The position numbers were made by a program, and so were the translations under genes. DNA of 64,000 bases from Bacteroidota bacterium (GTDB lineage Bacteria > Bacteroidota > Bacteroidia > CAIKAF01): the NCBI GenBank assembly GCA_016866335.1, contig VGMT01000002.1:62001-126000 (forward strand), written 5' to 3'. Within the stretch, counting starts at the first letter, position 1. Each line of letters starts with the position of its first letter. Below, one piece after another: positions 16,651-37,485 of the stretch. The notes under the pieces are model-generated. The model searched no databases. It was not told the origin of the DNA and saw nothing but the letters and a program-made list of their open reading frames with translations.

Positions 16651-16681
16651 TTGACAAAATGCTTCGTGGTCCGTAATTTTG
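16651..16681 (+). promoter_or_regulatory. Predicted Bacteroidota-type promoter of ncRNA copy 1
   Basis: TTG-N20-TAATTTTG (TAnnTTTG -7 box); same spacing upstream of ncRNA copy 2. Confidence 0.72.
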
Positions 16682-16683
16682 TA

Positions 16684-16697
16684 TTTCACTAGTGAAA
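16684..16697. promoter_or_regulatory. 14-bp perfect palindrome at or near the predicted +1 (possible operator)
   Basis: TTTCACTAGTGAAA; core CACTAGTG conserved at the same position in copy 2. Confidence 0.6.
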
Positions 16698-16926
16698 CAA
16701 AAAATAGCATTTGCTTCGCCACGTTTTTTGGGGTGGCGAAGAACACTTAGGGATTATTTTTTAGGCGTGAAGTGTGTTTTGTGGGTCAAAGGAAAGCTGA
16801 AAAGCAATTCAATGGTTCACAGGGGGTCTCAGAAAAGCCTTCTAATTTGGCAAAGGCAACTTTGCTGAAAAGGAAGGCGGGAGTTTCGGGAATGAGACGG
16901 GATGAAGTGGTAGATCATCCTTTTTT
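16687..16926 (+). ncRNA. Candidate structured ncRNA, copy 1 (~240 nt)
   Basis: Promoter; CTTCGCCAC/GTGGCGAAG; ACACTT/AAGTGT; nested GTCTCA[GCCTTC[GCAAAG-GCAA-CTTTGC]GAAGGC]TGAGAC; terminator. Paralogous to 37210-37452(-). Confidence 0.72.
16900..16926 (+). terminator. Rho-independent terminator of ncRNA copy 1
   Basis: GGATGA-agtggtaga-TCATCC-TTTTTT. Confidence 0.75.
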
Positions 16927-17223
16927 GGTGAGGGTTGATAAGAGGAATGGGAGTAGCGGGTAAGAGGTTGAAAGGGGTTAGGCGAATGCCAGCACTCGTT
17001 TCTCGAATCGGTATTAGGTTGGAAGAGGCAGCGTTGCCCAAGGGAGACCATCCTGTCATTTTGACTTGGATGCGCCTCCTAAAAGTGCTTGTATTGACTT
17101 TCTATGCCCGAAGGTAGAGTTCCCTACCCTTGATATAACGCCTCAAAATTTCCCTCTTAAACCAATAAATGGGTTCAACATTACAATATTATTCCCAAGC
17201 GTAAATTTTTGCAATTTTAGGCT

Positions 17224-36954: not shown

Positions 36955-37209
36955 GGTACAAAAATACAACTAATTCAAGGATGCCGCTATCAGGGGCTGC
37001 CCTGGCGGGGTTGGGTTGGTTTGGGCGGTTGGGAAGGAGGAAATCTACGACGATTAGAGACGCAATCTGTCTGTTGAACAGAAAGGACTCCCATGGGCTG
37101 GTCAAATTTATTCTTAATTGTTGCTGCGACAAAAAATTTGAAGTACGTTATAATTTCCATCCTCCAACGTATTCAACCTTCTTTGTTTTCCGCCTCAACA
37201 ACCTATTTC

Positions 37210-37235
37210 AAAAAGGGTATATCGCCACTACACCC
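37210..37235 (-). terminator. Rho-independent terminator of ncRNA copy 2
   Basis: Minus strand GGGTGTA-gtggcga-TATACCC-TTTTT. Confidence 0.72.
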
Positions 37236-37441
37236 TGTCTCAATCCCTGTATTCCCGCCTCCAGACTTCAGCAAAGTTACCTTTGTTGTTGCCAAGAAGC
37301 ACCTTTGAGACCCCCGAGTAAACCTTGGATTTCCTTGCGGAAATCTTTTGACTTACCCATCACACTTCACTCCAAATGAACCCTAAGTATTCTTCGCCAC
37401 CCCAAATACGTGACGAAGCAAATTCATTCAAAAAATTGTTT

Positions 37442-37449
37442 CACTAGTG
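37442..37449. promoter_or_regulatory. CACTAGTG dyad at or near the predicted +1 of ncRNA copy 2
   Basis: Conserved core of the copy-1 palindrome TTTCACTAGTGAAA. Confidence 0.55.
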
Positions 37450-37454
37450 AGCTT

Positions 37455-37485
37455 CAAAATTACGAAGGGCGTATAGACTTGTCAA
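37455..37485 (-). promoter_or_regulatory. Predicted promoter of ncRNA copy 2
   Basis: Minus strand TTG-N20-TAATTTTG; identical -7 box and spacing to copy 1. Confidence 0.72.

Follow-up and report, generated by a model that had tools for sequence, protein, structure and literature searches.

A previously unnamed family of genes for a folded RNA, probably of about 400 nt, was found in four uncultured bacteria from lakes and brackish water that are related to each other, with 8 to 30 copies in each. Judged by sequence only, without expression data, it is a family of paralogous structured non-coding RNA genes, as its copies combine compensatory changes in the helices with a promoter of their own.

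The window is the whole 64,000-nt stretch of DNA that was analysed (positions 62001-126000 of contig C2) and comes from a Flavobacteriales-like MAG of 2.45 Mb in 62 contigs (G000). Copy 2 occupies window positions 37485-37210 on the minus strand. When the window was searched with it by blastn, copy 1 was found on the plus strand from 16651 (72 % identity over 252 nt, E = 2e-28), and the similarity is far above chance. The original prediction, that copy 2 is a diverged minus-strand paralogue of copy 1, was confirmed by this match, and all parts that it had listed for copy 2 were located in the sequence at its coordinates on that strand. It was right about paralogy and wrong about number, as the genome has 27 copies and not two, and the length of about 230 nt that it implied was probably too short (about 400 nt instead; see below). 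In addition, it had overlooked hairpin H3, the most variable of the hairpins in sequence. The parts of the two copies are as follows.

Copy 2, 37455-37485, minus strand: promoter TTG-N20-TAATTTTG, read from the sequence (-33 box TTGACA at 37480-37485, N17, -7 box TAATTTTG at 37455-37462)
Copy 2, 37441-37450, minus strand: palindrome TCACTAGTGA, near the predicted 5' end of the RNA (consensus TTCA-N4-TGAA, N4 self-complementary)
Copy 2, 37392-37418, minus strand: helix H1, CTTCGTCAC/GTGGCGAAG, with 98.6 % of cells paired
Copy 2, 37361-37391, minus strand: helix H2, AATACTT...AAGTGTG, arms ATACTT/AAGTGT confirmed
Copy 2, 37316-37358, minus strand: hairpin H3, variable in sequence
Copy 2, 37235-37312, minus strand: helix H4, with GTCTCA/TGAGAC outer, GCTTC/GAGGC inner and apical CAAAG-GUAA-CUUUG
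Copy 2, 37215-37235, minus strand: hairpin H5, GGGTGTA-GTGGCGA-TATACCC, then TTTTT ending at 37210
Copy 2, 37096-37209, minus strand: linker, C-poor and GGA-rich by composition
Copy 2, 37046-37092, minus strand: 3' hairpin H7 (37057-37092) and conserved tail TAATCGTCGTA
Copy 1, 16651-16681, plus strand: promoter TTGACA-N17-TAATTTTG, read from the sequence
Copy 1, 16685-16920, plus strand: palindrome TTCACTAGTGAA (16685-16696) and H1-H5 (16714-16920), 211 bits in cmsearch with the covariance model R1
Copy 1, 17043-17091, plus strand: 3' hairpin H7 and tail

R1 has 205 positions and was built from 25 copies, copy 1 among them. The end of the copy 2 unit is common to copy 2 and its 98 % identical copy at C2:20604.

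After the promoter, the order of parts is palindrome, H1, H2, H3, an H4 with nested arms flanked by GGGG, H5 and linker. To test pairing, 39 copies drawn from the four species were aligned with MAFFT and 35 pairs in five helices were scored. Standard pairs filled 94.5 % of the cells, compared with 42-48 % when the 3' partners were slid by 1-3 columns, 16 of the 35 pairs carried changes on both sides, and none of 500 shuffles reached any of the five measures. Sliding makes a lenient control, since the helices had been inferred from family members, and more weight belongs to the counts of two-sided changes. The original prediction passed the tests that it had set for itself, and its preference for RNA over protein on the grounds of compensatory changes is supported by these figures and by the shortness of the open reading frames. 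Within one subfamily, H2 shows the compensations C-G to G-C and C-G to U-A. The outer and inner cells of H4 are paired at 97-98 % and all seven apical pairs have changed on both sides, while the arms of H5 compensate among copies (GGATGAA/TTCATCC, AAGTGAG/CTCACTT and GGGTTGGT/ATCAGCCC). H3 aligns poorly and was folded copy by copy; the same two-part hairpin was obtained in 69/69 copies tested, with a mean z of -4.05 against mononucleotide shuffles. Against dinucleotide shuffles, the fold gave a z of -2.2 for copy 2 and -4.9 for copy 1. At the level of sequence, the predicted hairpins H1-H5 are demonstrably under compensatory selection. We also calculated column-pair covariation without tree correction, which was dominated by subfamily signal and was not used as proof.

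The longest open reading frame per copy is variable (median 56 aa, range 26-118), no conserved open reading frame was seen in the copies, and indels that are not multiples of three are abundant across them, in line with the single frame-breaking indel pointed out for the two copies at the outset. Neither copy matches any Rfam family at the gathering score, and only noise, with nothing credible at E <= 10, was returned.

All aligned copies start at TTGA(CA)-N-TAnnTTTG, a promoter of the Bacteroidota type, and similarity upstream ends there, with the exception of A-rich sequence. The pattern TTGA-N-TAnnTTnS is kept in 26/27 copies of G000, in 24/24 of G003 and in 10/10 of G004. Retention of this pattern establishes, as far as a motif can, a predicted Bacteroidota-type housekeeping promoter for each gene.

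The GGGTGTA/TATACCC-T5 element had been proposed as the terminator. Hairpin and T5 are indeed present at the 37210 end, and it is their role as the 3' end that probably does not hold. A run of four T's follows H5 in only about 60 % of copies and is missing in about 40 %, recent duplicates stay similar to about +400, and a covarying 3' hairpin, H7, comes about 120 nt after H5. Because the T-run is often missing, the duplicates are alike to about +400 and H7 is compensated, the full RNA is probably about 400 nt long and H5 with its T-run is probably internal, although the predicted 3' end was not shown and a shorter form ending after H5 is possible. The 3' third of the RNA differs between subfamilies, and H7 with its conserved tail was found in one large subfamily. 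In 17 copies, both inner and outer pairs of H7 are retained with changes, including the compensated variants CATTTTTATC/GATAAAGATG and TATCCTACTT/AAAGTAGGATG. RNAalifold under-calls this helix because the loop lengths differ, and single-sequence folds show it clearly. GGA-type motifs in the linker exceed purine/pyrimidine-preserving shuffles (45 dereplicated copies). An excess of Shine-Dalgarno-like motifs in the linker turned out to be a general GGA excess; thus, no anti-Shine-Dalgarno function is claimed.

R1 matches 27 places in G000, all with E <= 6.4e-33, and most of these copies went into the model itself; blastn with copy 2 finds 29 places. Extension of a covariance model to other Bacteroidota, as had been suggested, gave strong copies in three congeneric species (30 in G003, 14 in G004 and 8 in G001, the last count including weak, decayed copies) and none that could be accepted beyond this clade. 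Nothing was found by R1 in the congeners G002 and G005 or elsewhere in the family or order, nor, apart from one rejected match, among 396 genomes drawn from the class, where the stricter filters of large-draw searches can lose weak matches. The rejected match (31 bits, in G223, which belongs to a different family of the class) consists of one isolated terminator-like hairpin at the end of rpoB, between rpoB and rpoC, and was taken as chance. A DNA pattern run over the GTDB collection retrieved LaPlata_bin-1703, casp15-mb.160 and ErkenSummer_bin-6618, which are the same three relatives and are labelled uncultured Flavobacteriales or Bacteroidetes. Single matches in one contig each of Verrucomicrobia, Acidimicrobiia and Gemmatimonadetes (3/39) were attributed to chance, the pattern being short and degenerate. 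Collections of phages, plasmids and viral contigs gave no match (one of these searches used one pattern only). SmpB is 91-96 % identical to that of G000 where the RNA occurs and 61-64 % identical in the two congeners that lack it, and the family is therefore a marker of a single clade. As the RNA was not found outside four species, it appears dispensable in relatives. Contigs often stop within a copy (L114 and L117-L123 in G003; L138 and L142-L145 in G004), and the copy numbers of G003 and G004 are therefore probably underestimates.

The surroundings of the copies bear on whether the RNA acts on its neighbours. If it were a cis-acting leader or attenuator of the adjoining gene, the co-orientation of the downstream gene at 10/25 copies (for example smpB after copy 2) could be accommodated, but the first clear downstream gene lies on the other strand at 15/25, by which such a role is largely refuted, and we give it almost no credence. 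The genes adjoining the copies are unrelated to each other and occur in both orientations, from which we infer that the RNA acts in trans. Alternatively, the 5' palindrome could be an operator in the DNA, bound by a dimeric repressor at the start site, and not a site of RNA dimerisation. Among 66 matches to TTCA-N4-TGAA, the centres are TCGA (37), CTGG (15), CTAG (9), TCGG (2) and CCGG (1), and thus 64/66 are self-complementary when wobble is included; the remaining two are TCGC in a decayed G001 copy and GGGG, probably a false match. Since adjacent bases cannot pair within a chain, the joint switching of centre bases points to pairing between two molecules or to a DNA dyad. The dyad lies near +1 and most centres are perfect DNA palindromes, which would suit an operator, but the asymmetric centres (CTGG and TCGG) give U.G on the RNA strand in 17 cases and C.A in none, and in the two RNA-less congeners the motif stays close to background. 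The U.G-only asymmetry favours RNA over a DNA dyad, with the reservation that the 17 centres stem from few independent changes, and we doubt the operator explanation without dismissing it. The RNA probably forms a homodimer through the 5' palindrome, an inference from the covariation of a single short motif in which independent switches are few. In a cryo-EM study of OLE, GOLLD and ROOL, switching palindromic centres at the intermolecular bridges of OLE and GOLLD were likewise taken as evidence of RNA-RNA contact (PMC12286853).

The sites themselves turn over. At the copy 2 site, R1 finds nothing in the five other genus genomes, and about half a kilobase is absent from G001 in a nucleotide alignment; at the copy 1 site, G001 has a decayed copy whose -33 box is broken, and the four others give no R1 match. 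This variation in presence and absence at orthologous sites is what is expected of a mobile element. Copy 2 is probably a recent duplicate of the copy at C2:20604, because the two are 98 % identical and the latter site has a decayed counterpart in G001. In the tree, several subfamilies are common to multiple species and there are recent bursts within single species, with many G003 copies mutually 93-96 % identical. Three intergenic regions carry different subfamilies in G000 and G003, in opposite orientation in two (L016/L115 and L023/L101). Empty sites, bursts and such replacements would all suit a non-autonomous mobile element of the selfish kind, with an RNA that works for its own spread and brings no gain to the host. 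We regard this as unlikely, though it remains a serious possibility, for old copies diverged to about 67-75 % still retain promoter and fold, and orthologous copies are conserved above their flanks. Loci with orthologues include L033/L127/L107, L025/L094, L028/L116 and L012/L128. Between G000 and G003 the orthologous cores are 66-88 % identical, compared with 33-49 % for upstream and 8-40 % for downstream flanks, which means that individual old copies are under selection or constraint. Neither a target-site duplication nor inverted termini were recognised, the flanks of occupied and empty sites being too diverged to place the insertion junction. No transposase-like neighbour was seen beside the copies, RVT_1 was not found in the four bearers (G000, G001, G003 and G004), and Y1_Tnp was not found in G000 and G001, other transposase families being outside the survey. 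The Y1 transposases occur in G002, G005, G003 and G004, and the RNA-less G002 and G005 are the congeners with reverse transcriptase. Two copies in G001 (L130 and L131, contig C56) are decayed where the G000 copies are intact, and the RNA family seems to be degenerating in that genome.

The nearest system in kind is FopS of Bacteroides, a set of 14 paralogous sRNAs (12-15 per genome) that have their own canonical promoters, are bound by the RRM protein RbpB and are deposited in Rfam (PMC11697453). Both are multicopy paralogous non-coding RNAs of Bacteroidota with a promoter for each copy. If the present RNAs worked as FopS does, their conserved loops would be mRNA-repressing seeds and the copies would diversify the targets. 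The alternation of variable and constant parts along the RNA fits this, and RRM_1 proteins are present in all six genus genomes, but they do not discriminate, as genomes without the RNA have them just the same. FopS is described as a single-stranded 5' seed region, which pairs with susC mRNAs, and a terminator (PMC11697453), whereas the RNA studied here has at least five hairpins over about 400 nt, reaches 27-30 copies in the genomes richest in it and has a switching palindrome. No FopS homology was found for copies 1 or 2 by Rfam search (the presence of FopS in the Rfam copy searched was unverified), and we consider base pairing of the FopS type improbable.

We favour, with slightly better than even confidence, a dispersed multicopy structured RNA that acts in trans, probably as a homodimer, and spreads like an element; its function is inferred and not shown. 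Fold, promoter, presence of the family and turnover of sites can be read from the genomes, while trans action, dimerisation and binding by the linker remain inferences for which there are no target or partner, expression or phenotype data. Under this trans-acting reading, the RNA would homodimerise via its 5' palindrome, the GGA-rich linker may be where a protein or a different RNA binds, and the many loci may serve dose or specificity, much as with the FopS sRNAs. New copies would arise by dispersed DNA duplication through unidentified machinery, carrying the promoter along, and copies that lose the structure would decay. A bolder version, that this is a self-spreading RNA element of a new type (promoter-bearing, homodimerising, protein-free, and proliferating yet kept functional copy by copy), seems rather unlikely to us; if true, it would resemble, in bacteria, the situation of multicopy small-RNA genes or SINEs in eukaryotes.

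Other known systems resemble the family in part only. The HEARO or omega RNAs of IscB and TnpB elements are multicopy structured RNAs linked to mobility. Unlike these, the present family has no Rfam match and no open reading frame beside any copy, and no TnpB zinc-ribbon family (PF07282) was found in the six genus genomes (IscB itself was outside the search). The lack of RVT_1 in the four bearers likewise gives no support for a retroelement RNA (retron, group II intron or DGR). REPINs are short palindromic repeats without a promoter of their own or a covarying 400-nt RNA, and the family differs from them in having both. The likeness lies in a population of intergenic repeats that replicates and persists within one bacterial lineage, as reported for REPIN-type populations (PMC8049555). 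OLE, GOLLD and ROOL are similar as large ornate RNAs, and the OLE and GOLLD bridges are nearest for the palindrome, with their self-complementary contact and switching centres, which is an argument from working alike only. The differences are that there is no sequence match, that dimerisation is merely an inference here and that no hairpin loop has been proven to hold the palindrome; the Rfam search gave no sequence or structure membership in OLE, GOLLD or ROOL. Membership in FopS or OLE/GOLLD is not claimed.

About 11 kb of the 2.45-Mb genome is devoted to the 27 copies, and no copy was found in the congeners outside the clade or in the other Bacteroidia sampled. The family can serve as a test case for the birth, spread and upkeep of multicopy non-coding RNA families in bacteria, and the four species, with their living, decayed and empty sites, form a natural experiment. 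The palindrome gives a direct prediction, an RNA homodimer, which is checkable in vitro without culture.

Two further observations concern the flanks of the copies. In the G004 loci L135 and L137, the upstream flank is that of one G003 locus and the downstream flank that of a different one, either through recombination among RNA copies or through an assembly chimera at the repeat. A repeat of a second kind, GC-rich, intergenic and about 150 nt long, with the 23-nt core GGGCTCCTAAAGTCGCCTCCGCC, has six matches in the window (3215, 16459, 17986, 33264, 37615 and 62095; none expected). Copies 1 and 2 each have one of these matches immediately upstream, and similar sequence is found beside several other copies.
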